Positions 1,187 through 55,573 of a stretch of DNA of 59,430 nucleotides are shown piece after piece (the stretch's first letter is position 1; each line of letters starts with the position of its first letter). The notes below the pieces were generated by a model, which was not told where the DNA came from, did not search any database, and worked only from the letters and a program-made list of their open reading frames with translations. The position numbers and the translations under genes were made by a program. This DNA is from Candidatus Peregrinibacteria bacterium CG11_big_fil_rev_8_21_14_0_20_49_14 (GTDB lineage: Bacteria; Patescibacteriota; Gracilibacteria; Peribacterales; Peribacteraceae): NCBI GenBank assembly GCA_002787035.1, contig PCVP01000018.1, positions 208-59,637 of the forward strand, in the 5' to 3' direction.

Positions 1187-1624
1187 ATGGCACAAATACA
1201 AAAAGACAACACTGCCGCGCAGTTTCCTGCGGAGCTCCCTCCCCTTCCGGCAAGCGGAGTGGAGTTATACGACTCCATCATGCAACGCATAGAGCCGGAG
1301 TTGGTTTCCGCGGAACTTCCGAACGTGCGCAAGAGGCTGCAAAATGCGAAGCCCGAAACACTGAAGATGCAGGCAAAAAAGTATCTCGCTGCTTTCGGAA
1401 AGTTTCAGGAAATTCTCGCACTCAGTGAAAAGAGAATGAGCGAAGAAGTGCGCGTATTTGCGCATACGACGTATGCGGCACTCGAGAAAATTGCGGCATC
1501 CATAGACGCAGATGTCATTGTCTCCTTGGAGAAAGAGTTTGCAAGAACCGAAGACGTAAAACAGAAAACACCCGAAGACATTCTGGCAGAGGAAACAGCT
1601 CCTCCCGCGCCCAACGTTCTATGA
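1187..1624 (+). CDS. Unknown 145-aa helical protein
   Basis: Unrecognised soluble protein, apparently all-helical, with an N-terminal proline-rich stretch (about residues 15-25) and an acidic, proline-containing tail (about 125-145). GTG at 1181 is an alternative start two codons upstream. ATG at 1187 is preferred because a TGGTATAAT extended -10 ends at 1175, which would make either a leaderless or nearly leaderless message. Its TGA stop overlaps the next ATG in an ATGA arrangement, so the following gene is probably translationally coupled and works in the same process. Confidence 0.75.
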   Translation: MAQIQKDNTAAQFPAELPPLPASGVELYDSIMQRIEPELVSAELPNVRKRLQNAKPETLKMQAKKYLAAFGKFQEILALSEKRMSEEVRVFAHTTYAALEKIAASIDADVIVSLEKEFARTEDVKQKTPEDILAEETAPPAPNVL

Positions 1625-2511
1625 GGTATTTCTTCACTGCTCTCGGCTCTGAAAAAGAAGCACGTCTTCTGAATTTTATGGGAGCGGGGGGCGGACCTGA
1701 AATGCGTAGCAATACTCCCGAACCCATAGATACGAAGGACGTACCTCTGAACGATATTGAGCAATCGTTGGCGGAGAGCGAGGGATTGCTGGAGTCTATC
1801 GATGAAAATATAGAAGGAGCTGCCGATGTGATTGCAGATCGTGTGGAGGACATGGCAAAGGTATCGCAGGAAGCGTCCGACACGGCGGTGCAGCGAACCA
1901 ACGAGTACCTTCTCGACCAAGTGGAAGGAGGAAAGCGCACCATACAGGTACTTATTGCGGAGCTGCTGGATATGAATGCCGATGCGCAGCGCAATGTTGA
2001 GGAGCAACGTAACGTCAATGTGACAGATCCTCGTGCAGAGGAGCTCTCTCGCCAGGGACTTTCCATGTCTGAAATGTCTCTCCGCCTCACGGAACTTATG
2101 GGGCGACAGGTGGACAAGCACATTGCCACAGGAGGTGCGTTGGACGCCGCACTGGAAGACCAGGAGGGTACGGGACGTTCAAAGACGTGGCATAAAGTCG
2201 AAGGAGGTACGGAGCAGCAGAAGGAAGCAGTTACTCAAAATCAGCGTACCGAATCTGCCACATACGTACCCGATGCCTCTTTGGAACAGCCTGCACGAGA
2301 TATTCTCCTTGCCATGCAAATTGCGGAAGGCAACACGACGGGAGACGTAAACGGACCGGAAGCATACAGACAGCTTGCAGCGCAATTTACGGATATGGAA
2401 CCCGAGGATCAAAAAGCATTCATCACATGGATGAACGATACAATCGGATCGTTGCCATACGAGGCGACATCGGATATCGCCGGCACGTTGCATATCGACC
2501 GTACGGCATAG
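1621..2511 (+). CDS. Unknown 296-aa acidic helical protein
   Basis: Unrecognised. The protein is highly acidic and glutamine-rich, with a long region of predicted helix or coiled coil between about residues 35 and 190. No signal peptide or membrane segment is visible. The start ATG overlaps the previous stop (ATGA), which argues for translational coupling. An internal ATG at 1678 would give a shorter form beginning MGAGGGPEM. The gene is followed at once by a small membrane protein with its own promoter. Function cannot be inferred. Confidence 0.75.
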   Translation: MRYFFTALGSEKEARLLNFMGAGGGPEMRSNTPEPIDTKDVPLNDIEQSLAESEGLLESIDENIEGAADVIADRVEDMAKVSQEASDTAVQRTNEYLLDQVEGGKRTIQVLIAELLDMNADAQRNVEEQRNVNVTDPRAEELSRQGLSMSEMSLRLTELMGRQVDKHIATGGALDAALEDQEGTGRSKTWHKVEGGTEQQKEAVTQNQRTESATYVPDASLEQPARDILLAMQIAEGNTTGDVNGPEAYRQLAAQFTDMEPEDQKAFITWMNDTIGSLPYEATSDIAGTLHIDRTA

Positions 2512-2531
2512 AGAGTGCTACTCTTGCGGGT

Positions 2532-2975
2532 ATGTCCCTGTCCCCTTTTGCAGTTCGGAAGGCATCTTCTGCCATGCAGTGTAATATTCTCGCTGTTGCG
2601 ATGGGGTACGTTACCGCAGTCATACTCGTTGTACTCAGTTTCGGAATACTCTCTCGCGTGTCTCCGAATTTTGTGCCGAGCACGTCACAAAATACGTCTC
2701 TCAGTACAACATTACTTTTGGTCACTCTTGCGCTCAGTCTTCTTGCGGCGATTGCAGGGGGGTTTGTAACGGCATTGCTCTCAAAGAGTTCCAGAATCCG
2801 ACTCGCCGAAGCATTGGGTGGTTTCATGATTCTTCTCGGTATTCTCACCATGATGATGGAACATGGTACAAAACCTCTCTGGTGGCATATCACACTCTTT
2901 TTCTTTCTAATTCCCAGTACCGTGAGTGGAGCATGGCTTCATGCTGCCGTGACAAAGAAGCACAAGAAGTGGTAG
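2532..2975 (+). CDS. Small four-helix membrane protein
   Basis: A 147-residue integral membrane protein with about four hydrophobic segments (near residues 17-40, 60-82, 92-112 and 117-138) and a lysine-rich C-terminus KKHKKW. I cannot name a family. The frame runs open further upstream, but ATG 2532 is chosen because an extended -10 (TGC then TACTCT, ending 2524) lies 7 bases before it, giving a leaderless mRNA that starts at the codon. The upstream extension would overlap the previous gene heavily. Confidence 0.7.
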   Translation: MSLSPFAVRKASSAMQCNILAVAMGYVTAVILVVLSFGILSRVSPNFVPSTSQNTSLSTTLLLVTLALSLLAAIAGGFVTALLSKSSRIRLAEALGGFMILLGILTMMMEHGTKPLWWHITLFFFLIPSTVSGAWLHAAVTKKHKKW

Positions 2976-3047
2976 TCTTTGTAGAGCCACAGAGCTTGTC
3001 AATACACACGCGATTGCCTCAGTGCATATGCGCGCTAGTATGGGCAG

Positions 3048-3563
3048 GTGCGAATTTTGAGAATCTTAAAAGACCTCTGTCTTTTCCAGGGATGGATATT
3101 CATAGCCGCGGCAGTCATCATCTGCTGGCAGTCCGTGCGTACCATCGCGTGGCCGACAACAGAGGGAACAGTATCGAGGTCCTATGTGGCCTACCAAGAA
3201 GTCATGGGCAAAACATGGTACTGGCCGAAGGTTTGGTACGACTACGAAGTGGAAGACAGAAAGCTCAGTGCGGAAAATATCGCTTTCTTTGGTATGGCTC
3301 CCTTCGGAGCACGAATATTCCCGACGTGGGAAGAGGCGAATGTAGTGTTGCAGAGCCAGTACGCCGAAGAGAGAACAGTGACCGTTCGGTATAATCCAAG
3401 TAATCCTCTCAATGCATTTCTCGTCGTGCGGGTGATGAGTGCGGATTTTATTTTTGTGCTTGTAGCGGGCATTATTTTGTTGCTGGCGGGTTGGCTTTGT
3501 ACTCTCACTCTCCGCGGAAAAACACAACCTGTTATTGCCACAAGGCAAGTGCGCCGATCTTGA
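3048..3563 (+). CDS. DUF3592-like membrane protein
   Basis: A 171-residue protein with two membrane segments (about residues 12-32 and 132-153) flanking a soluble beta-rich domain containing the V-Y-Y-x-V-x-x-x-x-x-x-x-x-N-I-x-F pattern and a late RYNPSNP motif, as in DUF3592 proteins. The role of that family is not established. The start is GTG 3048; TAGTAT ends at 3041, 6 bases upstream, so the message is probably leaderless. It is followed by an independently promoted secreted protein. Confidence 0.72.
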   Translation: MRILRILKDLCLFQGWIFIAAAVIICWQSVRTIAWPTTEGTVSRSYVAYQEVMGKTWYWPKVWYDYEVEDRKLSAENIAFFGMAPFGARIFPTWEEANVVLQSQYAEERTVTVRYNPSNPLNAFLVVRVMSADFIFVLVAGIILLLAGWLCTLTLRGKTQPVIATRQVRRS

Positions 3564-3587
3564 CATCCGAAGAGAGAAGATTAGCCT
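3560..3587 (+). promoter_or_regulatory. Promoter TTGACA / TAGCCT
   Basis: TTGACA at 3560-3565 and TAGCCT at 3582-3587 are separated by 16 bases. The -10 ends 9 bases before ATG 3597, so the transcript would begin at or just before the start codon. The -35 overlaps the stop codon region of the preceding gene. Confidence 0.6.
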
Positions 3588-3596
3588 ATGCCTCCT

Positions 3597-3998
3597 ATGA
3601 AAAAATTATTTTTCGCATTGGCACCGGCTTTCATTATCGGATGTATTGCAGTAAGTATGCCAATTGAAGTTCGCGCGGAAGGCGAAGGTGTTCATCCTTG
3701 GGATTCCTACCAACGCTCATACAGATACCGCATTTCACAGCGTCACAATCGTACAGTCGACAGAAGTGATCCGTACTTCATGCGTACCGAAACGCACGCA
3801 TTGCACCCGTACTACAGGAATAACTATCACACATTCCTGGATGTCGACTCATCGAACGTCACAAGCTTCCAGCGTGAACTCTTTTTATCGGGCTTTCCGT
3901 ACTATCGGGTTCCCGACACATCGACATGTCGTAACCACAGCTACTACAGACCGAACTACCGCACACCTCCGAGCGACTTTCGGTGCATAGCGCACTGA
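3597..3998 (+). CDS. Secreted tyrosine- and arginine-rich small protein
   Basis: Unrecognised 133-residue protein with a clear N-terminal signal peptide (hydrophobic core about residues 5-23, likely cleavage near residue 30 after VRA) followed by a polar domain rich in Y, R, H, N and S. Two cysteines near the C-terminus could form a disulfide. ATG 3597 is preferred over ATG 3588 because a TTGACA/TAGCCT promoter ends 9 bases before it. It is convergent with galU. Likely exported; function unknown. Confidence 0.72.
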   Translation: MKKLFFALAPAFIIGCIAVSMPIEVRAEGEGVHPWDSYQRSYRYRISQRHNRTVDRSDPYFMRTETHALHPYYRNNYHTFLDVDSSNVTSFQRELFLSGFPYYRVPDTSTCRNHSYYRPNYRTPPSDFRCIAH

Positions 3999-4832
3999 TT
4001 ATTCTTCCACCGAGAAAATACTGACCGCCTTGGCGTACCCTTCCGGGTGTCCCGTATCTATGCGCTTTCCGGTGCACTCGTAGCCATAAATGGGAATGGA
4101 GTTCAGTTGTTTCGTCAGTGCGTCTATGAGGCGAATTTCTCCTCCGTGACCTGTTTCCACTTCAGGAAGCACGTCGATGACTGAGCGGGGAATGAGGTAC
4201 CGCCCAACGATTCCAAGATCGGAAGGTGCAAATTGCGGTTCCGGTTTTTCCACCAAACCTTTTATTTTTTTTAAATTCGACGATGAGGGGTGCTCACTTT
4301 CCACTTCCACTATGCCGTAACGCAGCGTGTCTTCCGGAGGAATTTTTTCCAGTGCCACTATCGCACCGCGCTCATCTTCCGTGAGCTTTTCGTATGCGCG
4401 TATCATTTGCTGCAGTGCGGATTGAGGACCGGTAAAAAGATCATCTCCGAACAGAATCGCTATGGTGCCATCCCCCACCCAATCTGCCGCCTGCAAAATT
4501 GCATGACCGTCTCCGTGCTGTTCGTCTTGGTACACCGTGTGGAAATTGACGGAGTCATACCGCATCAGCTCTTCCACCAAATGAAATTTTCCGCGCTTCT
4601 TCAGTTCTTCTTCGAGCGCAGGTTCAATTGTAAAATATGCAGGAATAGATTCCTTCCCTTTGCTTATGACAAAGCAGATGTCTGTAATGCCAACATCCAG
4701 ACACTCATGGACAAGATGAGCAATAATCGGCTGATTTCCGAGAGGGAGCATCTCTTTGGGCACTGCCTTCGTCCAAGGCATGAAACGCGTTCCAAGCCCT
4801 GCCACGGGGAGAATAGCTTGCGAAATCTTCAT
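3999..4832 (-). CDS. galU: UTP-glucose-1-phosphate uridylyltransferase
   Basis: GalU makes UDP-glucose from UTP and glucose-1-phosphate, the sugar donor for surface glycans. The 277-residue protein has the N-terminal nucleotide-binding signature LPVAGLGTRFMPWTKAVPKE (about residues 8-27), the FGDDLF metal/nucleotide motif near residue 127 and VEKPEP near 205, all typical of GalU; length is also typical. It ends one base after the convergent upstream gene. In this window it fits with the glycosyltransferase and envelope genes further on. Confidence 0.95.
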   Translation of the reverse strand: MKISQAILPVAGLGTRFMPWTKAVPKEMLPLGNQPIIAHLVHECLDVGITDICFVISKGKESIPAYFTIEPALEEELKKRGKFHLVEELMRYDSVNFHTVYQDEQHGDGHAILQAADWVGDGTIAILFGDDLFTGPQSALQQMIRAYEKLTEDERGAIVALEKIPPEDTLRYGIVEVESEHPSSSNLKKIKGLVEKPEPQFAPSDLGIVGRYLIPRSVIDVLPEVETGHGGEIRLIDALTKQLNSIPIYGYECTGKRIDTGHPEGYAKAVSIFSVEE

Positions 4833-4906
4833 GAAATATTCGGATGAATTGGTACGTCAGTGTATGTCGACACTCTACCACTTAGAAGCGGTTACAATAA
4901 CAAGAT

Positions 4907-4935
4907 TTGACAAATAATGAAAAAGTTACTAAAAT
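4907..4935 (+). promoter_or_regulatory. Strong promoter TTGACA-17-TAAAAT
   Basis: TTGACA at 4907-4912 and TAAAAT at 4930-4935 with a 17-base spacer form one of the best sigma-70-type promoters in the window. Transcription should start near 4942, giving a leader of about 25 bases before ATG 4967. Because this leader lies inside the open frame upstream of 4967, it supports choosing the later start. Confidence 0.75.
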
Positions 4936-4966
4936 AGGTACGAACACTCTCTTCACACACAAACAT

Positions 4967-5293
4967 ATGTCAAAAGCAAAGCAGTCTTCCGGTCTTGCAA
5001 CAGTGCACAATCTTTATGTGATGCAGTTCCAGCTTATGGAGTATCTCCAGAGAGGCATACGAACTGAAAACCAAGCGAAAGAAGCAAAGCAATGTCTTCG
5101 TGAATTTTCAAATCTGCTGGGTGTGGCAAATCCGGATTATATGGGCGGGGAAGATGTCTACGAGACCTTGGAAAAAATTCAGCATGAAATGTCCTCACGC
5201 CTGAAAGAGAAGTCCGTGAAGTCTCGTACCGCAAAGAAGGTCACTGCGACAGCGGTCAAAGTGAAGAAGGTCGCGAACCAAAAGAAGAAGTAG
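4967..5293 (+). CDS. Small protein with lysine-rich, histone H1-like tail
   Basis: A 108-residue protein with a mainly helical N-terminal domain (about residues 8-72) and a C-terminal tail (about 77-108) made almost entirely of K, A, V, T and S. Such tails occur in bacterial histone H1-like and some ribosome or nucleoid proteins, so DNA or RNA binding is a reasonable inference. I do not recognise the N-terminal domain. The frame extends upstream to an ATG at 4907, but the strong promoter at 4907-4935 makes 4967 the likely start. It is convergent with the hsp20 gene, two bases apart. Confidence 0.75.
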   Translation: MSKAKQSSGLATVHNLYVMQFQLMEYLQRGIRTENQAKEAKQCLREFSNLLGVANPDYMGGEDVYETLEKIQHEMSSRLKEKSVKSRTAKKVTATAVKVKKVANQKKK

Positions 5294-5295
5294 CA

Positions 5296-5775
5296 CTAAG
5301 CGCTTTCGTTGATCCGTACAATTTTTACTTTCTCTTCCTTTGGAATCAGAATTTTTAAGATGGAATCTTTGCTGAAGGTTGCTTTTACTTTCTTGGGGTC
5401 TATGGCCGTCGGCATGGTAATACTCCTGCTGAACTCACCCCAAAAACATTCCTGTACGTAATACTGCTGTTCCGAAATGTCATCTCCTAAAGTGCGCTCA
5501 CCGCGTATCGTAATTACTTTGCCATCGACTTCTATATCCAAATCCGCAAGTCGTACGCCTGCTATGGGTGCGCGAATGATGTAGTAGTTATCCAACTCGT
5601 AGATGTCCACCGTAATTTGCCCTCCTTGCTGAGGGGGGTTGGACGGTGCGGATTCCGTGTCTCCTTGCGAAACTTCCTTTTCCAAGTGCAGATTACCCGG
5701 CAAACCTGCAAGGGGTGCAGATCCGTGTTCCTGATTAAAGGCGCTGAAGATTCCGTGGAACGGTGAGGGGGTCAT
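5296..5775 (-). CDS. Hsp20 / alpha-crystallin small heat shock protein
   Basis: A 159-residue small heat shock protein that holds unfolding proteins in the cytoplasm. The alpha-crystallin domain covers about residues 55-148, with the typical beta strands ending in A-F-x-x-G/S-I-L-x-I-x-I-P-K (here ATFSKDSILKILIPK, about 132-146). The N-terminal arm is glutamine- and proline-rich. The C-terminal IVRINE may serve as the I-x-I contact motif. A TACGAT hexamer ends 8 bases before the ATG, predicting a leaderless message; no heat-shock operator such as CIRCE is evident. Confidence 0.93.
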   Translation of the reverse strand: MTPSPFHGIFSAFNQEHGSAPLAGLPGNLHLEKEVSQGDTESAPSNPPQQGGQITVDIYELDNYYIIRAPIAGVRLADLDIEVDGKVITIRGERTLGDDISEQQYYVQECFWGEFSRSITMPTAIDPKKVKATFSKDSILKILIPKEEKVKIVRINESA

Positions 5776-5881
5776 TAACGTGCATCGTACAGAATCCCCT
5801 TCCTGTTGTGCAAATCTCGATTGTCATCCGAGAGTTGCGGAGTGTTTTTAAATCTCGTCAAACCGACTATAGTGCTTCAGC

Positions 5882-6811
5882 ATGTCCGCAGCTCCGGAGC
5901 ACATTCGCAGCGTACGAGATTACCGCAATTTACTTCTGCGGGGATGTTGCATGGGTGCCGCAGACATTGTTCCCGGTGTATCTGGTGGCACAATGGCGTT
6001 TATTCTCGGTATCTATGAAGAGCTCATAGATTCCATCCGAACATTCGGCACCGCACAATTTTTAGGTGCGGTGGCACACCTGCGTTTGCGTCAGGCATTT
6101 GCCATGATCAATGTAAAATTTCTGCTCGCCGTTGGTGCAGGAATAGTGCTTGCTGTACTCACATTATCCCACGCATTGGAGTACGCATTGGAGCAGTACC
6201 CCATCGTTGTGTGGAGTTTCTTTTTCGGATTGGTTCTCGCCTCCGTGCATGTTGTTTCTCGGAGAGTACGATCGTGGAATGTTCTGCTGGGTACTGCGAC
6301 TGCCATCGGCTTACTTGGAGCGTACGCGTTGGTAGGATTGGTTCCCGTTGAAACACCGGATGCACCTTGGTTCTTGGTGCTGTGCGGTGCGGTGGCAATT
6401 TGCGCTATGATTCTTCCCGGCATATCGGGATCATTTCTTCTGGTATTGCTTGGGAAGTATGAATTTATTTTACGTGCGGTGAATGAGCGAGATATCGTCA
6501 GTGTGGGATACGTGGGAGTGGGTGCCGTGGTAGGCATCGTGGCTTTCTCTCAGGTGCTCAGCTGGTTGCTGCACAAACATCACGACATCACTGTCGCATT
6601 TCTCACGGGACTCATGATAGGAAGCCTGCGAAAAATTTGGCCGTGGAAAATATCTGCCGGAGTGTCGGGAGAGCACAACGTACTTCCGCATATGTTTGTG
6701 CAAGGTCACATAAACACGGATCTGTTCTCGGGTATTGCACTTCTGCTCATCGGCTTTATGGTCGTCATCATCCTGGAGCATCTGGCAAGCAGGGGTGAAG
6801 AAGGCAAATAA
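5882..6811 (+). CDS. DUF368 membrane protein, polyprenyl-phosphate translocase (PopT-like)
   Basis: A 309-residue polytopic membrane protein with the DUF368 signature near its N-terminus (GAADIVPGVSGGTMAF, about residues 22-37) and the internal repeat of it, ILPGISGSFLLV (about 178-189). DUF368 proteins are reported to return undecaprenyl phosphate across the membrane for reuse. The neighbour 36 bases downstream is uppP, which dephosphorylates the same lipid carrier, so context agrees. TATAGT ends 8 bases before ATG 5882, suggesting a leaderless message. Confidence 0.9.
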   Translation: MSAAPEHIRSVRDYRNLLLRGCCMGAADIVPGVSGGTMAFILGIYEELIDSIRTFGTAQFLGAVAHLRLRQAFAMINVKFLLAVGAGIVLAVLTLSHALEYALEQYPIVVWSFFFGLVLASVHVVSRRVRSWNVLLGTATAIGLLGAYALVGLVPVETPDAPWFLVLCGAVAICAMILPGISGSFLLVLLGKYEFILRAVNERDIVSVGYVGVGAVVGIVAFSQVLSWLLHKHHDITVAFLTGLMIGSLRKIWPWKISAGVSGEHNVLPHMFVQGHINTDLFSGIALLLIGFMVVIILEHLASRGEEGK

Positions 6812-6847
6812 GTTCGTATTACACACACGCTGAGTTATGCTGAGCAT

Positions 6848-7639: not shown

Positions 7640-7685
7640 AACGAAAGGCAAAGAAAAGTAGTACGTAATACTATGACTTTTCTTC

Positions 7686-7713
7686 TTGAACAATTCTGAA
7701 TGCTAAGTAGAAT
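7686..7713 (+). promoter_or_regulatory. Possible promoter TTGAAC / TAGAAT
   Basis: TTGAAC at 7686-7691 and TAGAAT at 7708-7713, 16 bases apart, lie 33 bases before ATG 7747. This would give the small regulator a conventional leader of roughly 25 bases, unlike most genes here. Moderate match only. Confidence 0.4.
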
Positions 7714-9590: not shown

Positions 9591-9617
9591 AGGAAAGCCA
9601 GAATACCAGAACCATCC

Positions 9618-10199: not shown

Positions 10200-10227
10200 C
10201 AGAGTATTGTACAGTAAATTTAACATA

Positions 10228-11235: not shown

Positions 11236-11298
11236 CAAAATATTATACCAATTTTCCTGTTTCATTGCTAGGCGGCATTTCGCTATCCTCTTGTGCGC

Positions 11299-12929: not shown

Positions 12930-12981
12930 CGGAAGCAAAGCGTAGCAGTGAGCACGGCTTTTTGAAAACTTCTTTTATCAT

Positions 12982-13311: not shown

Positions 13312-13596
13312 ATCGCAGGGGGGGAAAAGAATATGACAACCGCAGTTTACGCCGGCACTTCGCTTGTGCAAGCCAAAAAGTATGTTTTACCATGCTATTT
13401 TACAGCTTGTTTCCGTTAAAATGGCTTACAGAAGCCAAAAAAACTGATCACCAAAGGTAGTCATGAATTCTATACAAAGTGCTGTTTTACGTACGTAGAA
13501 TGCACTCAATCGACAGATTTGTATTCCAATGCCCCCGGAAGAAAGAAGGAATACAATTTTGACAATCTCTTCCTTTCGCCTCTAGTCTCTGGCTCG

Positions 13597-17793: not shown

Positions 17794-18129
17794 AGATGTT
17801 TTTTAACGAAGGAAAATAAAAACTTATGTAGAAGTCCACTGCGGATCTACATGGATGCTATCATTAATGATAGACTTGTCCGATGTACTCTTATGCCACA
17901 GGCATTTTTTGTGTGATTAAAGCTATGATTCGGATCACCCACTTGTGACACAAAAGTTGCTACGTTAGAGTAACTTCGCACTCAGATCACACGAGCGGTT
18001 GCTCGTATTGCCCAATTACGGAAGAAGCCGGCACTTCGTTCGGTTTCAACGTCCGTAAAAGGGCAACTTCAAGCAGTTTGTTGAGTGCGCCGGCGGAGTG
18101 CCGATTTGTACTTCTACTATCTGATGAAT
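17794..18129. other. Intergenic region with short hairpins
   Basis: No convincing gene. It contains an inverted repeat TATCATTAATGATA near 17859-17872 and a weak terminator-like hairpin on the plus strand at 17893-17910 (ATGCC, loop ACA, GGCAT, then Ts). A TACTAT hexamer at 18115-18120 probably belongs to the promoter of the next small gene. Confidence 0.45.
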
Positions 18130-19434: not shown

Positions 19435-19662
19435 TCATTGTACCTGAATTTCCAATGCTTCTAAGTGCGTTTTCGCGTCATCCCAGTCCACACTCTCAAC
19501 CTCCTCCTGCGACATAACCAGCGCGGTAATTCCACTGACATCCACCTGTTGCTCGAATCTCGGTGAAAACTCCTCCCTTCTTTTCCGTTCCAGATACTTC
19601 AAAGCCAGCCCGCCATCGTTCTCCATTTTCTCGATAACAATCCTCCGTTGCCTCACTAACAA
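19435..19662 (-). pseudogene. C-terminal remnant of a phage terminase-small-subunit-like protein
   Basis: A 75-codon frame without a good start carries M-E-N-D-G-G-L-A-L-K-Y-L-E-R-K-R-R-E-E-F-S-P-R, the pattern (A-x-x-W/Y-L-x-R-R-x-x-E-x-F) found at the end of phage terminase small subunits and related phBC6A51-type helix-turn-helix proteins. The DNA-binding N-terminus is absent. I read it as a decayed fragment of a mobile element, in keeping with the nearby tRNA-Trp repeats. The identification is by pattern only. Confidence 0.45.
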
Positions 19663-21461: not shown

Positions 21462-21502
21462 CGTTCTGGTCGCAGGGTCTTTATTCTGCTATACTAATGG
21501 GA

Positions 21503-23512: not shown

Positions 23513-23580
23513 GGAGTCTGCATTGTAGAGCAATACCCGTATGAATACAGAATGTTCTACGTATATGGCAGACTCATGTG

Positions 23581-25371: not shown

Positions 25372-25432
25372 ACGGTTATGATACTTCGTTTCTCTAGTTT
25401 GAGCCATTGTTGTTCTGCTACCATTGCGTGCG

Positions 25433-26746: not shown

Positions 26747-26786
26747 ACGACGTGCGCAGTCATTCTTTCTGCTACTATCTGTTTCC

Positions 26787-30548: not shown

Positions 30549-31669
30549 GTGAACCTGTGCGGAGCTGCTTTTTCCACGACGGAAGATATTTGAGAGCGAA
30601 ATTTCTCCGAAGCAAACTGTTTTGCATGTATACGAATTTCTTGAGGATCAAACGTCATCGTAGAAAATTCATCCAGTGTGTTTCGAAGAGAGTCGACGCT
30701 TTGTTGTTCGAAGAAAATGCCGGTCTTGCCTTTTTTTACCGTATCTAATGCCCCTCCTTTTCCAAGTGCGATAACCGGAGTACCGCACGCCTGTGCTTCC
30801 AACGGCGCGACTCCCGCATCTTCAAGTTGCGGGAAAAGAAACGCTTTTGCATATCCGTACAAATCGGGAAGCAGAGCATCGGGAACGTATCCCAACAGTT
30901 CCACAGTCGGACCTGCCATTGCACTGAGTCGTGAAAAATCTTGTCCCGTTCCCGCAATTTTTAATGGGATGCCCAGAGCATTCGCTGTGTCTATGAGCAG
31001 GTCAAACCGCTTATACGGCACCAGTCTTCCCAGCGCCAAGAAGTACTCTTTTCTCTCGGATTGCTTGCGTACGGGTGCACTGAACAAATGCCGGCTCACC
31101 GGCGGATATACCACATGACTTTTTCGCCCGTAAATTCGTTCTATGCGCTCTTGCACGGTGGTGGAATTGGCCAAAAATACATCGGTGCGATTTGCAGTCG
31201 TAAGGTCCCACCTGCGGAGTTTTCTCAGTTGGCCGCGCACTGTTTTTTGCATGCGCTTGGGTATGCGAAAATCTTGCAGGTACTCATTTTCCATTTCCCA
31301 TGCGTAACGCATGGGCGTGTGGCAGTAACAGATGTGTACCGCCGTAGGTGGCACAATAATACCTTTGGCTACCGCATGCGAAGAGCTGATCACCACATCA
31401 AATTCCCTCAGGTCTATTTGTTCCATGGCTCGCGGCATAAGCGGAAGAAGCACTTTGTGATTTCCGCACAGCGTATAGAGACGTTGCAAAGAGGTTGTAC
31501 GAATATCTGCATTATCCAGAGGACCAAGTTTCCCGTGATTTGCTATGCTGGTGTACAGCGGTGCGTCCGGCCACAGTGCACAGAACTCAGCTATGACATG
31601 TTCTGCGCCCCCGAAAGTGGGGAGCCAGTCTGCTACGATTGCAATGCGAGGAGTAGAGCGGTGAGTCAC
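30545..31669 (-). CDS. GT4-family glycosyltransferase
   Basis: A 374-residue GT-B glycosyltransferase that should move a sugar from a nucleotide donor to a surface glycan or lipid carrier. Visible are F-G-G-A-E (about residues 20-24) in the acceptor domain and the GT4 donor motifs L-G-R-L-V-P-Y-K-R (about 215-223) and [17 protein letters not shown] (about 281-297). It resembles mannosyltransferases such as WbaZ. The start is GTG 31669: TATGAT ends 6 bases before it; the frame upstream has no likely start. Confidence 0.88.
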
Positions 31670-31740
31670 CGTGGCATCATACCTTCTTTGCTCGCATATC
31701 TCGATGTTCCTGCGCACCTGCACTATTATGCCTTGGCCCT

Positions 31741-32655: not shown

Positions 32656-32738
32656 GCCAAAATGACATGTCGTGTTCTTGCCATGAAATAGCAGTCTGAA
32701 CACTTCACTTTGGGGTGAAAAAGCTTATCCTGTACGGG

Positions 32739-37884: not shown

Positions 37885-37951
37885 GAGCGTTTCATTTTGG
37901 GCGCCTTTTTTTCATATCGGAAAGGAGGTTTTTGTGTACAATATGCTACCT

Positions 37952-40168: not shown

Positions 40169-40354
40169 TCTTGCATGGTACCACAATTGTCGCGATCTCT
40201 TCACATTCCGTGGTGCGAGAGTGCGTGTGGTTACAGTGCAACCAGCTCATTGGCTGTGGAATAATCGTATCCGTTCAAATATGCCTCGCATGCGAAGATT
40301 TTTATTTCCATTTTGGTGGAAAAAATTCACTGCATTGGTCTAGAATCGAAACGG

Positions 40355-45221: not shown

Positions 45222-45272
45222 CGAATACTATTCTACAGGAGCACAGACGCCGTGAGTACGTTTCTTTTTGTT

Positions 45273-46373: not shown

Positions 46374-46376
46374 GGT

Positions 46377-48120: not shown

Positions 48121-48225
48121 ATCGCTCCGAGAATACAGAAGTTCACCTACGCACGTAAGAGAGAACATGCGAGTATCGCAGCTTTTTTCCTTTCCACGGA
48201 TTCATCACAGAAGGATACTGCTCAT

Positions 48226-49811: not shown

Positions 49812-49820
49812 TTTTTCAGT

Positions 49821-49848
49821 GTTCCATAGGAGTAAGGAACTTCTTTTT
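49821..49848 (+). terminator. Terminator after yidC
   Basis: A 5-bp stem GTTCC/GGAAC (49821-49825 with 49836-49840) with a 10-base loop is followed by a T-rich tract TTCTTTTT. It lies 10 bases after the yidC stop and ends the rnpA-yidC unit. Confidence 0.6.
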
Positions 49849-49938
49849 AGGCTTTAGTACGCCAAAAAATAAGAAAGATTTTTTGTTCTACCTGCAAAAC
49901 ACCTCCACCGAAATTCGGTTGCTGAGTAGTGTGATTGC

Positions 49939-50331: not shown

Positions 50332-50339
50332 GCTTCCGT

Positions 50340-50370
50340 AAAAAGGCTGCTTTCTGGCGGCCTTTTTTTT
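50340..50370 (+). terminator. Strong terminator after the four-helix bundle gene
   Basis: A stem GGCTGC/GCGGCC (50345-50350 with 50357-50362, one G-U pair) with a 6-base loop is flanked by A5 and a run of eight Ts, a textbook Rho-independent terminator. Confidence 0.88.
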
Positions 50371-50459
50371 GAGTGTACAGTACTGCATTTCACTTCGCCT
50401 TCGGGCTTCGAATGTTGTCATGATGTCACTGAAATCGCCTGTGTCGTACTATGGCGCAT

Positions 50460-50696
50460 ATGGTTCGCTGGCGAGAGACCAACGGGATAACCGGCGGAAG
50501 AGATGCCGAAGATGAGCACACGCGACAAGTCATGGAACAATTCGACGTGCACGCCCTAGACAGCCCGCACTACGCGCAGGCAGCCGCGTGTGTGCAGGTA
50601 AGCAGTGATAAACGCATGGCATTGCAGCGGCTTTTTCTTACAGTTTTACAAGATGCTCGTAAGCAGACTGTTCGTCGTATACAAGAGTCGAACTAG
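50460..50696 (+). CDS. Unknown 78-aa soluble protein
   Basis: A small helical protein beginning MVRWRETNGITGG and ending with a basic helix. No family recognised. ATG 50460 is preferred over ATG 50451: TACTAT ends at 50452, which would place the first ATG inside the -10, while the second is exactly 7 bases downstream. Convergent with the aldolase gene, 2 bases apart. Confidence 0.6.
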   Translation: MVRWRETNGITGGRDAEDEHTRQVMEQFDVHALDSPHYAQAAACVQVSSDKRMALQRLFLTVLQDARKQTVRRIQESN

Positions 50697-50698
50697 GC

Positions 50699-51766
50699 TT
50701 ACGCAACCGTTACCTCAGGGCAGAGGTACACGTCTTGAATGGCGTTGAGAATCTCTATGCCTTGCTCCAGCGGCTTCTGGAAAGCTTTGCGTCCGGATAT
50801 GAGTCCGGAGCCTCCCGCACGCTTGTTTATGACCGCTGTTTGCACCGCTTGCTGCAAGTCGTTTTCTCCCGATGCACCGCCGGAGTTTATAAGCCCTATG
50901 CGACCCATGTAGCAGTTGGCCACTTGGTAACGACACAAGTCTATGGGGTGGTCTGTCGAGAGCTCCGTGTACATGCGCTCATCCAGTTTTCCGTAGGAGC
51001 TGTTGCCCATGTTCATCGCCGTGAAACCCCCGTTATTCTCGGGCAGTTTCTGCTTAATAATATCGGCTTGTATGGTGACTCCGAGGTGGTTTGCCTGCCC
51101 GGTTAAGTCGGCAGAAACGTGATAATCTTTGTCACTTTTAAACGCACTGTTTCGCAGATAGCACCACAAAACGGTAAACATACCGAGTCTGTGCGCTTCT
51201 GCGAATGCTGCGGCAACCTCCACTATTTGCCTGCTGCTTTCGGGAGATCCGAAGTAGATGGTAGCTCCCACTCCTTTGGCACCCATGTCGTAGGCTTCTT
51301 GAACCGTACCGAACATAATTTGGTTGAACGCGTTGGGGTGTGTGAGCAGTTCGTTGTGATTCATTTTTACAATGAACGGAATCGTATCTGCGTACTTCTT
51401 TGCCACTATTCCCAGGACGCCGTACGTGGATGCCACGGCATTGCAGCCGCCTTCTATGGCGAGTTTTACAATGTTTTCCGGGTCGAAGTAGTCGGGGTTT
51501 TTGGCAAAAGAAGCCCCGCCGGAGTGCTCTATTCCTTGGTCTACGGGCAAGATGGAAAGGTATCCCGTTCCTCCCAACCGTCCGTGACCGTACAGTGCTT
51601 GCAGATTTTGTTGCACAGCTTTGCTGCGGTCAGACTGCGCAAAAATATCGGCAGCTGTTTTTGGCCCCGGAATGTGCAGCCTGTCTTTGGAGATGGTGTC
51701 ACATGTATGACCGAGAAGATCTTCTGCTTGGTCACCGAGGAGTGTTTGAATTGCGCTGTAATCCAT
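50699..51766 (-). CDS. Class I fructose-bisphosphate aldolase (FbaB type)
   Basis: This enzyme cleaves fructose-1,6-bisphosphate through a Schiff base, without metal. The 355-residue protein matches the bacterial/archaeal DhnA/FbaB group: L-P-V-D-Q-G-I-E-H (about residues 72-80), V-K-M-N-H-N-E (about 131-137), [10 protein letters not shown] (about 164-173) and the phosphate-binding I-S-G-R-K-A-F (about 325-331). Length is typical of the longer FbaB form. An 8-bp inverted repeat about 80 bases upstream may regulate it. Confidence 0.92.
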
Positions 51767-51845
51767 AGTGGGGAAGTCGGGAAAGTGTGCACGTAGGCTA
51801 TCACGCGAGCGCCCTCCTTTCTAGGAGAGAGTTCGACTCCGAAGA

Positions 51846-51866
51846 GAAGTATGTAATGCATACTTC
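51846..51866. promoter_or_regulatory. Inverted repeat upstream of the aldolase gene
   Basis: GAAGTATG (51846-51853) and CATACTTC (51859-51866) are perfect inverted 8-bp arms around TAATG. It lies 80 bases upstream of the aldolase start and could be an operator or the first hairpin of its leader. Confidence 0.45.
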
Positions 51867-51923
51867 ACAATGCTGTGATACGTCTCTTCATGTAGGCACA
51901 TACGCAGATATGGGGAGTTTCTC

Positions 51924-51943
51924 TTGTACTGTTTACTGTACAA
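51924..51943. promoter_or_regulatory. Palindromic operator-like site TTGTAC-N8-GTACAA
   Basis: TTGTAC (51924-51929) and GTACAA (51938-51943) form a perfect inverted repeat with an 8-base spacer, the shape of a dimeric repressor site. It lies in the divergent region between the aldolase and the 52120 gene. No regulator gene is adjacent. Confidence 0.45.
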
Positions 51944-52012
51944 ATTCCATGTTTTGTCAAAGACTACGTTATCTGTTCTTTTCAGCATCCTTGTTTTGCA
52001 CTCTGCTGAATG

Positions 52013-52077
52013 GCCCGTTACCCGGGAAGAAAAAAATCTTTCGGGGTGACGGGCTCTTGCATCGGAGTTGAGAGCCC
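52013..52077 (+). promoter_or_regulatory. Two overlapping, mutually exclusive hairpins
   Basis: Hairpin A pairs 52013-52030 with 52037-52054 (about 17 pairs, one mismatch, loop of six As). Hairpin B pairs 52051-52057 with 52071-52077 (GGGCTCT/AGAGCCC). They share 52051-52054, so only one can form. Neither is followed by a T-run. They precede the TACAAT at 52098 by 20-80 bases. This could be an attenuator-like switch if transcription starts upstream, or a strong bidirectional barrier. Confidence 0.45.
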
Positions 52078-52097
52078 AATTTCGTGATGGCACGCAG

Positions 52098-52113
52098 TAC
52101 AATCTAAAGGAGG
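52098..52113 (+). promoter_or_regulatory. TACAAT -10 and Shine-Dalgarno AAAGGAGGT
   Basis: TACAAT (52098-52103) is followed at 52106-52114 by AAAGGAGGT, a full Shine-Dalgarno, 5 bases before GTG 52120. If transcription starts about 7 bases after the -10, the mRNA would begin within the ribosome-binding site. This is one of few starts in the window with a Shine-Dalgarno sequence. Confidence 0.65.
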
Positions 52114-52119
52114 TACGTC

Positions 52120-52341
52120 GTGCAAAAGACTCTCTGTGGTCCTGTTGAGGATATTGTTGTCGGGCAGAGCATCGTGACGGTGCCCACCCCTGCCGGTCCC
52201 GTGGAAATTCTTGTGGCAACAGCCCAAGACGACGAGGTGGAATTCCACCTCGACGGATCTCCCGAGGCCCTTGCCTACGTGAATGCCGAAGCCGACCTTT
52301 TGGTCGGCGATCCCATTTCTTCCGGAAAGGAGGCTGCGTAA
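52120..52341 (+). CDS. Unknown 73-aa acidic protein with strong Shine-Dalgarno
   Basis: A small acidic protein, beta-rich in appearance (V-E-D-I-V-V-G-Q-S-I-V-T-V, P-V-E-I-L-V-A-T), starting with GTG. No family recognised. The ribosome-binding site is perfect, which is unusual here and suggests high or special translation. Another AAAGGAGG lies at its 3' end (about 52326-52333), followed by a GC-rich hairpin that may end the message. Confidence 0.65.
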   Translation: MQKTLCGPVEDIVVGQSIVTVPTPAGPVEILVATAQDDEVEFHLDGSPEALAYVNAEADLLVGDPISSGKEAA

Positions 52342-52386
52342 CCCATGCAATCGGGACGAATGCAGGATGCTGAAGTCAACAGTACC

Positions 52387-52417
52387 GGGGGAGTATGTCA
52401 TGACGACACGCTCCCCC
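52387..52417 (+). terminator. GC-rich hairpin, possible terminator
   Basis: GGGGGAG (52387-52393) and CTCCCCC (52411-52417) form a perfect 7-bp stem. The following T-tract is poor (AAACTTTATGG), so termination strength is doubtful. It separates the 52120 gene from the next one. Confidence 0.45.
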
Positions 52418-52470
52418 AAACTTTATGGTTTTGTTTGCTTCATTGTTCATACGACTTACAATCGTTTGCC

Positions 52471-52863
52471 ATGGCAGAAGCTGCTTCTGATTATTCTGAT
52501 ATCGGCAACACACTCTCAGCGCTCGCGGAGTTGCAGCGCGATCATTTGGACCATCCGTGTCATCCTACGTTTATGCCTGCTTATATCGGTTTGGCTCAGA
52601 GTGCATTGAGTGCCATTCGCGAATGCTTGGAGCAAGACTCTTCCATGGAGTCTGTGCAACGAGAAGGTCTTACCGCATTGCTGCACATATGGGAAACAAA
52701 CTTACTTCCACGGTACATAGAAAGCTCCATAGCAGCACTGATTATGAATGCTCGCCTCTATGCCAAATTGAGCCTCCCACCCGATCAATTTGATGTGTTT
52801 GTTGCGCAGCAAGAAGTGCACATTCGCGCACTGCATGAGGCATTCGAAACAACAGGTGCATAA
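52471..52863 (+). CDS. Unknown 130-aa helical protein
   Basis: A soluble all-helical protein with no recognised family; leucine- and alanine-rich helices throughout, H-L-D-H-P-C-H-P near residue 25. The frame is open back to ATG 52345, which has GGAGG upstream, but that extension would translate through the GC-rich hairpin; TACAAT ending 8 bases before ATG 52471 supports the shorter form. Convergent with the 52871 gene. Confidence 0.6.
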   Translation: MAEAASDYSDIGNTLSALAELQRDHLDHPCHPTFMPAYIGLAQSALSAIRECLEQDSSMESVQREGLTALLHIWETNLLPRYIESSIAALIMNARLYAKLSLPPDQFDVFVAQQEVHIRALHEAFETTGA

Positions 52864-52870
52864 ATACGTG

Positions 52871-53437
52871 CTATTTCCCCGTATCTAACACCGCATGAAA
52901 ACTCATGTGCACGCTTACGAGTTTTTGCATGCATACCAGGGTGATTTTGTTTGCTCGCGGATCATCAACCTGTTTCCATTGCACGATAGTGGGGTTGGCT
53001 ACAATCGGCGGCAGCTCCCCCACATCTTGCAATTGCGCTGCCAGTGCATCTTGCGCCTGCAGAATAATCTCTCGCACATTCAGCTCTTGCAGTGCCTGTT
53101 TTGCCAGCGAGAGTTTCCAGTCTTTGTACGCGTTTAAATCCGTAAGTTGCTTACGTATGATTTCGTGTACATCGGCGGGGTTTGCACCTGCCAATTCCTC
53201 CAGTGAGAACCCCGCCCAATCCAACACCCAGACCATACTCGGACCTACGGGTTTATAGAGAACCGCAGGCAAATTGTTCTCTCGTCTCGGCACGACGAAG
53301 CCCGCCTCTTCGAGCAGTGCCCACAGCTCTTCGTATTCCGCGGCTTTCGGCACAAGCTCGCCTGCCGCAGCGTCGAATTCCGCTATGAGACTTTGGTCAT
53401 CTTGCCCTTCGAATCTGATGGTGAATTTCGGTGCCAT
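52871..53437 (-). CDS. Unknown 188-aa soluble protein
   Basis: Unrecognised. The sequence has an alpha/beta N-terminal half with several tryptophans (about residues 35-80, including W-V-L-D-W-A-G-F) and a helical second half (about 85-140). No signal, membrane helix or metal motif. A long gene-free stretch (53438-53658) follows on the other side. Function cannot be inferred. Confidence 0.7.
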   Translation of the reverse strand: MAPKFTIRFEGQDDQSLIAEFDAAAGELVPKAAEYEELWALLEEAGFVVPRRENNLPAVLYKPVGPSMVWVLDWAGFSLEELAGANPADVHEIIRKQLTDLNAYKDWKLSLAKQALQELNVREIILQAQDALAAQLQDVGELPPIVANPTIVQWKQVDDPRANKITLVCMQKLVSVHMSFHAVLDTGK

Positions 53438-53646
53438 AAGGGAGTATTGTTACATTTGCACACAAGAAAAAACAACCGAATACGGACGTATATATTTGCT
53501 TTTGCATGGTCAAAGCACGTCGGTATTTCTATACTTCTTTCCTGCTCATTTTTCATCGTTTCGTAAGTCCGGCGTAGAGTCGCATTGCATGCGCCTGTAC
53601 CCCCGACTTCTGTTGGAGTCGGGAATATCTTTTTCGTTTTTCACAC

Positions 53647-53651
53647 GGAGG
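53647..53651 (+). promoter_or_regulatory. Shine-Dalgarno GGAGG for the 53659 gene
   Basis: GGAGG lies 7 bases before ATG 53659 in ACACGGAGGATGATGAATGG. A TATCTT about 25 bases further up may be the -10. It is a conventional leadered start and contrasts with most genes in this window. Confidence 0.7.
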
Positions 53652-53658
53652 ATGATGA

Positions 53659-54069
53659 ATGGCGAGTCAAAAACGTCTCACGGTCGTACAGCAATTCGAC
53701 CAAAAAAAGTCAGGTCGCTGGACAGACAAGGTGGCTGCATTCATGCAGGGTTCCGGGTACCGCATAGGTGAGAACATCGAAGTGCGATTTCTCCGAGTCG
53801 ACCCTAAGGGAACGGTGGTCCAACTTTCCACGTCGAAGCATATGGAATTGCAAGGCGGGCAACCCGCCGAGCCGGACCCCGAGCCTCCGTCCGAGGCACA
53901 GGGTACGTGGCTTCGCGAGCGCCTGCTTACGAAACAAGAGTGTACGATGCGCATTGGCGACTACCTCTTTTTGCAGGTGGATGCTGAAACGCAAAGCATT
54001 ACGTTTCGTTTACGGCTGATGGCTGCGTATACCGTCGAATCTTTATCCGACTCCTGTGATGCCGCCTAA
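53659..54069 (+). CDS. Unknown 136-aa beta-rich protein
   Basis: A basic N-terminal segment (MASQKRLTVVQQFDQKKSGR), a beta-rich core (I-E-V-R-F-L-R-V-D-P-K-G-T-V-V-Q-L), a proline/glutamate linker (about residues 71-82) and a second beta segment. No family recognised; the overall look recalls small nucleic-acid-binding beta barrels, but I cannot show that. It has a Shine-Dalgarno sequence and a very strong terminator, suggesting an abundant product. Confidence 0.65.
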   Translation: MASQKRLTVVQQFDQKKSGRWTDKVAAFMQGSGYRIGENIEVRFLRVDPKGTVVQLSTSKHMELQGGQPAEPDPEPPSEAQGTWLRERLLTKQECTMRIGDYLFLQVDAETQSITFRLRLMAAYTVESLSDSCDAA

Positions 54070-54126
54070 ACAGGCGGCAACAAAAGTCGGTAATCGGCGC
54101 CCCGTTATTGCGGGGCGCCTGTTTTT
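54061..54126 (+). terminator. Double hairpin terminator after the 53659 gene
   Basis: A first hairpin GCCGCC/GGCGGC (54061-54078) encloses the stop codon in its loop. A second, perfect 9-bp stem GGCGCCCCG/CGGGGCGCC (54096-54104 with 54111-54119) is followed by TGTTTTTA. The second is a textbook Rho-independent terminator. Confidence 0.88.
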
Positions 54127-54163
54127 ATATGTGTTTGGCGCAGTGCTTCGGTATGATTCCCGT

Positions 54164-55573
54164 ATGTCCCTTACGCTCTACAACACGTTTTCAAACAAGG
54201 ATGAAGAGTTCTCTCCCATAGAGGAGGGGAAAGTGAGTATGTATACCTGCGGTCCGACGGTCTACGGCAGACCGCATATAGGCAATTACTCCTCTTTTCT
54301 TATGGCAGACCTGCTGCGCAGGTGGCTGGAGGTTTCGGGGTACGCAGTCACACATGTCAAAAACATTACGGATGTCGGACATCTGGTAGCAGACGCGGAC
54401 GAAGGGGAAGACAAAATAGAAAAGCAGGCAAAACAAGAAAAAGCAGATCCGCTCGCCATTGCTCGTAAATATACGGAGCAGTATTTGGAAGACGAGAAAG
54501 CACTCAATATGCTGGAGCCTCAGTACCGTCCCAAAGCGACCGAAACAATCGCAGAGATGATCGGTATTATAGAAACACTCGTCGCCGGCGGACATGCGTA
54601 CGAAACGAAGGACGGTGTGTACTTTGCCGTGGAGTCTTTCCCCGACTACGGCAAGCTGTCGGGGAACATACTGAAAAATCTTACTGCCGGTGCGCGTGTG
54701 GAAGTAAAAGAAGAGAAGCGTCATCCCGCAGACTTTGCTCTCTGGAAAAAATGCATAGGGGCAAATGCGCATCACAAGTTGCGGTGGAATTCGCCGTGGG
54801 GAGAAGGCTTTCCCGGTTGGCACATAGAGTGCTCTGCCATGAGTCAGAAGTTTTTGGGCAAGCAAATCGATATTCACACGGGGGGGGAAGACAATATCTT
54901 TCCGCATCACGAGTGCGAGATCGCACAGAGCGAGTGCAGCGGTCCCAAACCCTTTGTACGGTACTGGATCCACAAACGGCGCATAGATATTGGTTCGACA
55001 AGCTCACCACGGGGGGTGCAGAAGATGTCAAAGAGTCTTGGCAATGTGGTAACTATTTCTGACATTCAGGAGATGGGCTACTCTCCGTTGGACCTGCGGT
55101 ACTACCTTCTTTCCGTGCACTACCGCACGCAGTTAAAGTTTACAAAGAAGGGTCTGGATGACGCGAAAAAGGCGCGAAGGAAGATTATGGAATGGATGGC
55201 AGAAGTAGAGCAATCCCCCCGTAGCGATGCAGATATTACGTCGTGGAAGCAAAAATTCAGCTCTGCTATGAATGCGGACATTAATACACCGGAGGCTCTG
55301 GCTTCGGTATTTGATCTCATGGCGTATTCTCGCAATGAGGGTGTTCTTGGTGCGTGCCGTGAAATGGCAGATATCATTCGACGTACGTTCGGCTGTTTCG
55401 ATACGCAGCAGGAACAGGCAATCCCCACAGAAGTATTGGCGTTGGTACAAGAACGCGAGCAAGCGCGCTCAAAGAAGGATTTCGAAGCATCAGACCGCCT
55501 GAGAGACGACATAGCAGCTCTCGGATACGAAGTGCGAGACCTGCCGGAAGGGCAGAAAATAACGCCGATGTGA
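54164..55573 (+). CDS. cysS: Cysteinyl-tRNA synthetase
   Basis: CysS attaches cysteine to tRNA(Cys). The 469-residue class I synthetase has the zinc cysteine and HIGH-type motif in C-G-P-T-V-Y-G-R-P-H-I-G-N (about residues 28-40), further ligands in W-H-I-E-C-S-A-M (about 220-227) and H-H-E-C-E (about 249-253), and K-M-S-K-S-L-G-N (about 287-294). Length is normal. The frame is open upstream, but TATGAT ending 6 bases before ATG 54164 and the family start M-x-L-x-L-Y-N-T decide it. Confidence 0.97.
   Translation: MSLTLYNTFSNKDEEFSPIEEGKVSMYTCGPTVYGRPHIGNYSSFLMADLLRRWLEVSGYAVTHVKNITDVGHLVADADEGEDKIEKQAKQEKADPLAIARKYTEQYLEDEKALNMLEPQYRPKATETIAEMIGIIETLVAGGHAYETKDGVYFAVESFPDYGKLSGNILKNLTAGARVEVKEEKRHPADFALWKKCIGANAHHKLRWNSPWGEGFPGWHIECSAMSQKFLGKQIDIHTGGEDNIFPHHECEIAQSECSGPKPFVRYWIHKRRIDIGSTSSPRGVQKMSKSLGNVVTISDIQEMGYSPLDLRYYLLSVHYRTQLKFTKKGLDDAKKARRKIMEWMAEVEQSPRSDADITSWKQKFSSAMNADINTPEALASVFDLMAYSRNEGVLGACREMADIIRRTFGCFDTQQEQAIPTEVLALVQEREQARSKKDFEASDRLRDDIAALGYEVRDLPEGQKITPM

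Follow-up and report, generated by a model that had tools for sequence, protein, structure and literature searches.

Leaderless mRNAs have been described as a sizeable minority mode of gene expression in a few bacterial phyla, and in haloarchaea, whose promoters have TATA boxes, they are the majority mode. Use of the Shine-Dalgarno (SD) sequence persists in Actinobacteria, and initiation of the Bacteroidetes type is associated with an A-rich context just before the start codon. In the TA-led genes of Deinococcus-Thermus, a TANNNT hexamer lies with its first T ∼12 bp from the start and is read as a promoter −10 element giving a leaderless mRNA (excerpts of Zheng 2011, PMC3160421, and of PMC12340547, 2025). 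The excerpts of the first paper report TA-led genes in many bacteria, with a maximum of 46.1% of genes in Deinococcus radiodurans, and a mean of 19.2% leaderless genes in Actinobacteria; those of the second report, by experiment, that the −10 motif adjacent to open reading frames (ORFs) acts as a promoter in Deinococcus, where it reaches ∼30% on average, the highest among the phyla of that study, and coexists with a GGAG ribosome-binding-site motif. Excerpts of PMC9581028 give up to 40% of transcripts in a leaderless group of bacteria, and the abstract of PMC6847099 describes mRNAs without SD sequences, and ribosomes with a conserved anti-SD, in Flavobacterium johnsoniae (Bacteroidetes). The present analysis concerns a TANNNT hexamer (the box) upstream of start codons in 59,430 nucleotides of DNA (the window; contig PCVP01000018.1, positions 208 to 59,637) from Candidatus Peregrinibacteria bacterium CG11_big_fil_rev_8_21_14_0_20_49_14. 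Comparison with related genomes indicates that this hexamer is very probably the housekeeping −10 element of mostly leaderless mRNAs, in an organism in which SD sequences are undetectable and the 16S anti-SD has drifted with its pairing kept.

The proposed mechanism is of a known kind; what is new is a probable predominance of leaderless expression, an undetectable SD and an eroding anti-SD. The hexamer, its spacing and its reading are like those of Deinococcus-Thermus, but the fitted SD weight is 0.01–0.06 in Peribacteria against 0.69 in megaplasmid MP1 of D. radiodurans. The likeness to Actinobacteria (Mycobacterium, Streptomyces) lies in leaderless expression, a sizeable minority mode there according to excerpts of PMC3160421; unlike in that phylum, SD sequences stand at background and the anti-SD is altered. 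Like F. johnsoniae, Peribacteria have mRNAs without SD sequences, but CCTCC occurs in 3 of 31 family 16S tails, the signal resembles a promoter box, and the context before the start is not A-rich (in this genome A is 0.21 at −6 to −1 and pyrimidine 0.75 at −1). Unlike in haloarchaea, the putative promoter is of the bacterial sigma-70 type. Among the matches listed in a search of open-licence PMC text, with subscription papers and preprints outside its scope, nothing was found on leaderless or SD use in Patescibacteria, and the excerpts of PMC6851277, PMC12641178, PMC7441243, PMC10849945, PMC10434106, PMC12369343 and PMC7550191 contain no treatment of it; the last has a supplement listing ribosome binding sites of bacteria of the candidate phyla radiation (CPR).

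The genome around the window comprises 1.44 Mb in 46 contigs. Because the eight nearest topA loci found are 63–68% identical, seven of them being named Peribacter, Peribacteria, Peribacteraceae or Peregrinibacteria, and because a 16S fragment is 86.7–94.0% identical over at least 1034 bases to 30 compared family loci, the source organism is assigned by similarity to the Peribacteria, in the Patescibacteria (CPR). A contaminant 16S was suspected since the match came in pieces, and is ruled out by this identity to all 30 loci. The genomes compared are this one (G000, genome-scale tests of which cover 577 of 1437 kb), two family relatives (G028 and G030) and, as contrasts, Escherichia coli K-12 and MP1. 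A purpose-written gene finder using coding potential only called 449 genes in the 577 kb, and the ATG nearest to the start called from coding potential alone is termed the blind start.

The initial annotation of the window, which proposed the hexamer and the leaderless reading, had chosen some starts by the signal, and the test was therefore redone with blind starts. In the window TANNNT begins at −15 to −12 in 14 of 47 cases (p = 1e-5 against 8%). At genome scale the same is true of 97 of 397 blind starts in G000 (31.8 expected, p = 3e-23), 56 of 254 in G028 (15.9 expected) and 91 of 295 in G030 (20.6 expected). MP1, a known leaderless case, has the box at 15 of 91 (2.8 expected), and E. coli has no excess (4/80 vs 4.4 expected). 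The blind strict-hexamer rate being 24–30%, the 29 starts listed in the initial annotation are a positive subset. The positional peak of TAnnnT, whose genome-wide absence had been set beforehand as refuting the claim, is sharp in G000, G028 and G030. In G000 the box precedes the first ATG of 106 of 437 ORFs and 81 of 3019 internal in-frame ATGs. Among 64 XYNNNZ patterns TANNNT ranks first at 3.6-fold enrichment; the next five are all pyrimidine patterns (1.7 to 2.5-fold). An excess of TANNNT ∼10–12 bp upstream over shuffled expectation, which marks TA-led genes in the sense of Zheng 2011, is thus present. Blind expectation maximization (EM) for one motif was seeded with random hexamers and allowed any offset between −30 and −8, the best of 15 such runs being kept. 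In each of the three Peribacteria genomes it yields TAcacT, located mostly between −12 and −16, and in G000 the log-likelihood is ∼205 above that of shifted and shuffled controls; the same procedure returns SD in E. coli and Deinococcus. A two-motif version, in which low-complexity motifs took the whole weight, was replaced by the one-motif version and fixed held-out matrices.

All 29 listed starts (17 on the plus and 12 on the minus strand; 26 ATG, 3 GTG) do have TAnnnT upstream, its first base 12–15 bases before the start codon. The "nine-odd" TGn extensions ahead of it are eight by count, and the stated lack of SD sequences holds for 27 of the 29, SD tetramers (GGAG, GAGG, AGGA or AAGG at −18 to −5) being found at 31669 (AAGG) and 48120 (GGAG). 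The chance level, put at about one in sixteen, is 5.2% for ATG trinucleotides of the window (114/2204, both strands, true starts included), and the rate expected in upstream DNA of G000 is 8.0%. Of the genes whose starts were said to be fixed by homology, Pfam matches support recJ, topA, cysS, Hsp20, PF04018 (which we take to be the former DUF368) and BacA (presumably a synonym of uppP); DnaJ is supported likewise. Of these starts, 25 fall in finder-called genes, the exceptions being 3597, 18130, 19429 and 37952. The best start equals the listed one in 25/25, an agreement that is partly circular as the choice uses a box model trained on the two other genomes; coding score alone gives 11 exact matches. 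The putative elements are as follows.

2519–2524, plus strand: putative −10 hexamer TACTCT, 13 nt before ATG 2532, TGn present
3036–3041, plus strand: putative −10 hexamer, 12 nt before GTG 3048
3560–3565, plus strand: putative −35 TTGACA (6/6), spacer 16 to the hexamer of 3597
3582–3587, plus strand: putative −10 hexamer, 15 nt before ATG 3597; gene not finder-called
5784–5789, minus strand: putative −10 hexamer, 14 nt before ATG 5775 (Hsp20)
5868–5873, plus strand: putative −10 hexamer TATAGT, 14 nt before ATG 5882 (PF04018 protein)
6836–6841, plus strand: putative −10 hexamer, 12 nt before GTG 6848 (BacA)
9600–9605, minus strand: putative −10 hexamer, 15 nt before ATG 9590 (recJ), TGn present
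10206–10211, minus strand: putative −10 hexamer TACAAT, 12 nt before ATG 10199
11242–11247, minus strand: putative −10 hexamer TATAAT, 12 nt before ATG 11235, TGn present; divergent to 11299
11284–11289, plus strand: putative −10 hexamer, 15 nt before ATG 11299 (DnaJ; the J-domain match begins at residue 4)
12939–12944, minus strand: putative −10 hexamer, 15 nt before ATG 12929 (KH/R3H protein), TGn present
13559–13564, plus strand: putative −35 TTGACA (6/6), spacer 18 to the topA hexamer
13583–13588, plus strand: putative −10 hexamer, 14 nt before ATG 13597 (topA)
18115–18120, plus strand: putative −10 hexamer, 15 nt before ATG 18130; gene not finder-called
19437–19442, minus strand: putative −10 hexamer TACAAT, 13 nt before ATG 19429 (DUF6804); gene not finder-called
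21490–21495, plus strand: putative −10 hexamer, 13 nt before ATG 21503 (M23 peptidase), TGn present
23522–23527, minus strand: putative −10 hexamer TACAAT, 15 nt before ATG 23512 (HD domain protein)
25378–25383, minus strand: putative −10 hexamer, 12 nt before ATG 25371 (Carb_kinase); divergent to 25433
25419–25424, plus strand: putative −10 hexamer, 14 nt before ATG 25433, TGn present
26773–26778, plus strand: putative −10 hexamer, 14 nt before ATG 26787, TGn present
31676–31681, minus strand: putative −10 hexamer, 12 nt before GTG 31669 (glycosyltransferase)
32726–32731, plus strand: putative −10 hexamer, 13 nt before ATG 32739 (peptidase S11)
37937–37942, plus strand: putative −10 hexamer, 15 nt before ATG 37952 (GIY-YIG domain); gene not finder-called
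40175–40180, minus strand: putative −10 hexamer, 12 nt before ATG 40168 (PPDK_N/PEP-utilizers protein), TGn present
45230–45235, minus strand: putative −10 hexamer, 14 nt before ATG 45221
48130–48135, minus strand: putative −10 hexamer, 15 nt before ATG 48120 (GatC)
49927–49932, plus strand: putative −10 hexamer, 12 nt before ATG 49939
50447–50452, plus strand: putative −10 hexamer, 13 nt before ATG 50460
52457–52462, plus strand: putative −10 hexamer TACAAT, 14 nt before ATG 52471
54152–54157, plus strand: putative −10 hexamer, 12 nt before ATG 54164 (cysS)

In the GIY-YIG gene the Pfam match starts at the listed ATG 37952; an in-frame GTG at 37934 on the plus strand, 18 bases upstream, is preceded by the SD-like AAAGGAGG.

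The share of genes carrying the box lies between the strict excess of 16–24% and a model estimate of about two thirds. Fitted with a matrix from the other two genomes, the held-out box weight is 0.63 in G000, 0.63 in G028 and 0.68 in G030, with shifted and shuffled nulls of at most 0.07 in these three, and it is 0.00 in E. coli and 0.15 in MP1. Self-trained fits of two signals give TA/SD weights of 0.78/0.06, 0.74/0.01 and 0.70/0.02 in the three Peribacteria genomes, 0.31/0.69 in MP1 and 0.14/0.86 in E. coli, the E. coli TA value lying inside its own nulls (0.11, 0.18). In the window, the posterior for the box exceeds 0.5 in 40 of 51 called genes.

Judged by tRNA genes, −35 spacing, co-movement with the start and depletion in tight clusters in two of three genomes, the hexamer looks like a promoter −10 element. 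TANNNT at −19 to −14 precedes 28 of 54 tRNA genes, whose products escape translation, where 7% is expected. Among 244 boxed genes, −35 matches of 5/6 or better number 22 at spacers 16–18 and 0–3 at any other spacer from 8 to 29; in unboxed controls they number 39/2808 at spacers 16–18. Where the nearest ATG of an ortholog is shifted relative to that of G000, the box stands at the ortholog's own start in 9 of 12 cases for cysS and 7 of 11 for recJ, and at the place aligned with that of G000 in 2 cases each (ATG only; usable loci 27/29 and 20/29). With GTG starts included and G000 counted, 21 of 30 cysS and 18 of 26 recJ orthologs have the box, from 30 loci each after dropping recJ loci without a candidate start or an alignable N-terminus. 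The commonest box offset, −12, puts the A of the ATG where sigma-70 transcription starts. The usual context of a transcription start site is a pyrimidine followed by a purine, and base −1 is a pyrimidine in 71–81% of genes in the three genomes (50% in E. coli). Separate fits per class in G000, G028 and G030, respectively, give box weights of 0.72, 0.78 and 0.79 for divergent genes; 0.56, 0.65 and 0.57 for co-directional genes at least 60 nt from their neighbor; 0.75, 0.65 and 0.73 for co-directional genes at 15–60 nt; and 0.32, 0.16 and 0.65 for genes <15 nt behind their neighbor, so that the box is depleted in tight clusters in G000 and G028.

TTCCC-like pyrimidine tracts are enriched just ahead of starts in the same three genomes, most clearly in genes <15 nt behind a neighbor. 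Tracts (9 of 10) at −24 to −1 are found there in 22/60, 15/41 and 18/48 genes (G000, G028, G030), and further upstream in 6, 3 and 5; just before the start they occur in 0/25 in E. coli and 1/27 in Deinococcus. The enrichment is absent in E. coli, MP1 and two further genomes (G075, G068). Their role may be that of a signal for coupling or of the S1 type.

SD tetramers at −16 to −5 number 27/397 in G000, equal to the background of 27, 11/254 in G028 (background 25) and 12/295 in G030 (background 18); in E. coli they number 43/80 over a background of 7. G000 has neither the enriched GGAGG-type motif nor the conserved CCUCC that characterize SD-led bacteria. SD sequences matched to an altered anti-SD (e.g., GGAA, GAAG) were considered and rejected, six tetramers at every offset reaching 0–2% in the all-gene sets of the three genomes.

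The 3′ end of the 16S rRNA, suggested in the initial annotation as a place to look, has an altered anti-SD, CACUUCC in G000, where the gene (contig C32, L001:1120-1190) ends CACTTCCTTA; the canonical end is CACCTCCTTA. A 16S match was obtained in 48 family genomes, with loci given for the best 30, and the tail was readable in 31 of the 48. The core CCTCC is present in 3 of the 31 and CACCTCC in 2, and after AAC the sequence is ATCTCC in 12 and ACTTCC in 10. Because CCTCC is kept in 21 of 24 tails located among 30 from the wider phylum, erosion of the anti-SD is a family matter. Behind the anti-SD, the trailer CCAGGGAR is found in 30 of 31 family rows, and a change of C to T in the anti-SD accompanies one of G to A in the trailer: at pair 6-20, 16 rows have C-G, 14 have T-A and 1 has C-A, a covariation matched by 0 of 10000 shuffles, which ignore relatedness. 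In tail L125 the anti-SD is lost and the hairpin apparently kept in a shifted register, and in 20 of 24 phylum tails anti-SD and trailer are complementary. Such a hairpin of the 16S precursor is known elsewhere. The compensatory change indicates that the pairing is kept, whereas the sequence that reads the SD is not. Split alignments suggest insertions of several hundred bases towards the 3′ end of two other 16S genes (L153 and L154, from G036 and G029).

Loss of IF3 or S1 was also considered. IF3 is present in 25/25 family genomes, which rules out its loss. Loss of S1 was likewise rejected, a strong match being found in 23/25, whereas G015 has a fragment and G024 a match to one domain only; all S1 matches stay below the rpsA cut-off, a level attained by only 2 of 14 controls, and the match in this genome spans positions 6–347 of 516, about the first two thirds of the rpsA model. 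A search for bS21 found none in this genome, a weak match in 8/25 family genomes and one above the cut-off in 1/25.

The peak and the altered anti-SD support the leaderless reading of the initial annotation, within limits set by tight clusters and ribosomal-protein genes. Several observations weigh against it. The strict hexamer explains an excess of 16–24%, and the figure of 63–68% depends on a permissive matrix; one shifted E. coli null in the held-out fit reaches 0.15, the self-trained nulls of G000 are high (0.25 and 0.28), and 51 of 3258 decoy ORFs score above the threshold of the gene finder. With 25 E. coli proteins as tblastn queries, 32 hits in the three genomes have the box at −16 to −11 in 4 cases and an SD tetramer in 2, a few of the hits falling short of the N-terminus; for the 23 ribosomal-protein hits the counts are 2 and 1. 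The topA orthologs have the strict box in 3 of 8 Peribacteria and a perfect TTGACA (6/6) in 5 of 8. A good −35 is missing in most boxed genes, TGn is barely commoner before boxes (57/244) than before other TANNNT (55/314), and tightly packed genes of G030 keep the box (0.65). A second population of box plus −35 lies at −45 to −24 (18/314 at spacer 17); some genes may thus have short SD-less leaders, or misplaced starts.

This second population also fits the view that the hexamer is a real −10 element with the main mRNA coming from promoters further upstream, leadered and SD-less, and the leaderless start secondary; two promoters per gene are possible. The −12 to −15 peak, however, exceeds every other offset, and divergent starts only 61–63 nt apart (11235/11299 and 25371/25433) leave scant room for leaders; this arrangement is very unlikely. 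Somewhat harder to sustain is the proposal that the hexamer acts in translation initiation, as a ribosome site of the non-SD kind put forward for Bacteroidetes, on mRNAs with ordinary leaders. The tie to the start codon, the background level of SD sequences and the packed genes of G030, which carry the hexamer as often as others, would suit it, but a translation signal does not account for the hexamer ahead of tRNA genes, for −35 matches at 16–18 bp, for depletion in tightly packed genes of two genomes, or for a pyrimidine-rich region near the start (A 0.17–0.21 at −6 to −1 in the three genomes). That the whole pattern is an artefact of signal-guided start choice or of base composition near starts is highly improbable. 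Some starts were indeed picked with the aid of the signal, blind starts lower the strict rate in the window to 14/47, and pyrimidine patterns are enriched too, up to 2.5-fold; against this, blind starts, held-out matrices, the 64-pattern comparison, shuffles, the negative E. coli and the positive D. radiodurans all agree. Start selection is ruled out by the blind starts, held-out matrices and shuffles, except insofar as the finder itself is biased to such starts, and general base composition by the first rank of TANNNT among the 64 patterns.

Under the favored reading of the hexamer as a −10 element, its placement would let transcription begin at the A of the start codon or within ∼3 bases, and most genes owning a promoter would therefore give leaderless or nearly leaderless mRNAs. 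The ribosome would then accept a 5′-terminal AUG or GUG with initiator tRNA and not depend on SD pairing, and relaxed SD use may have let the 16S anti-SD drift, with trailer pairing kept by compensatory change. If so, Peribacteria would offer a natural experiment in initiation by ribosomes that do without SD sequences, with the anti-SD free to drift, and would be informative on whether most genes of a bacterium can be expressed by leaderless initiation. In such genomes starts may be misplaced by gene finders that look for SD sequences, and Peribacteria genes would need a new 5′ end for expression in E. coli. A broader scheme, tentative and with perhaps slightly more against it than for it, is that in Peribacteria, and perhaps in much of Patescibacteria, SD initiation has been replaced by a leaderless mode where a gene has a promoter to itself and, in tight clusters, by a mode based on UUCCC-like pyrimidine tracts, the Peribacteria 16S tail being kept only for the precursor hairpin. 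A variant with an inverted Shine-Dalgarno, in which mature 16S retains the trailer CCAGGGAR and uses it to pair with the UUCCC tracts, is very doubtful; the mature 16S would then keep CCAGGGAA and would not end at ...CUUCCUUA. The tracts lend it no support, TTCCC being commoner than CTCCC in each of the three genomes, irrespective of the trailer (41:15, 37:20, 32:16).

Six other Patescibacteria provide 64–107 blind starts each from 111–140 kb. In five the strict box exceeds expectation (31/107 vs 14.4, 24/86 vs 6.8, 32/99 vs 6.2, 14/64 vs 6.8 and, in G075, 31/80 vs 4.2). The sixth, G090 (31% GC), has a weak excess (26/102 vs 18.4, p = 0.04) and fitted weights of zero for both box and SD. The 16S tails of G090 and G075 (L165 and L183) are without a recognizable anti-SD. 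Held-out box weights in the five are 0.13, 0.21, 0.43, 0.16 and 0.60, and the SD weight is clearly over both nulls in G074 alone (0.33 vs 0.09 and 0.00).

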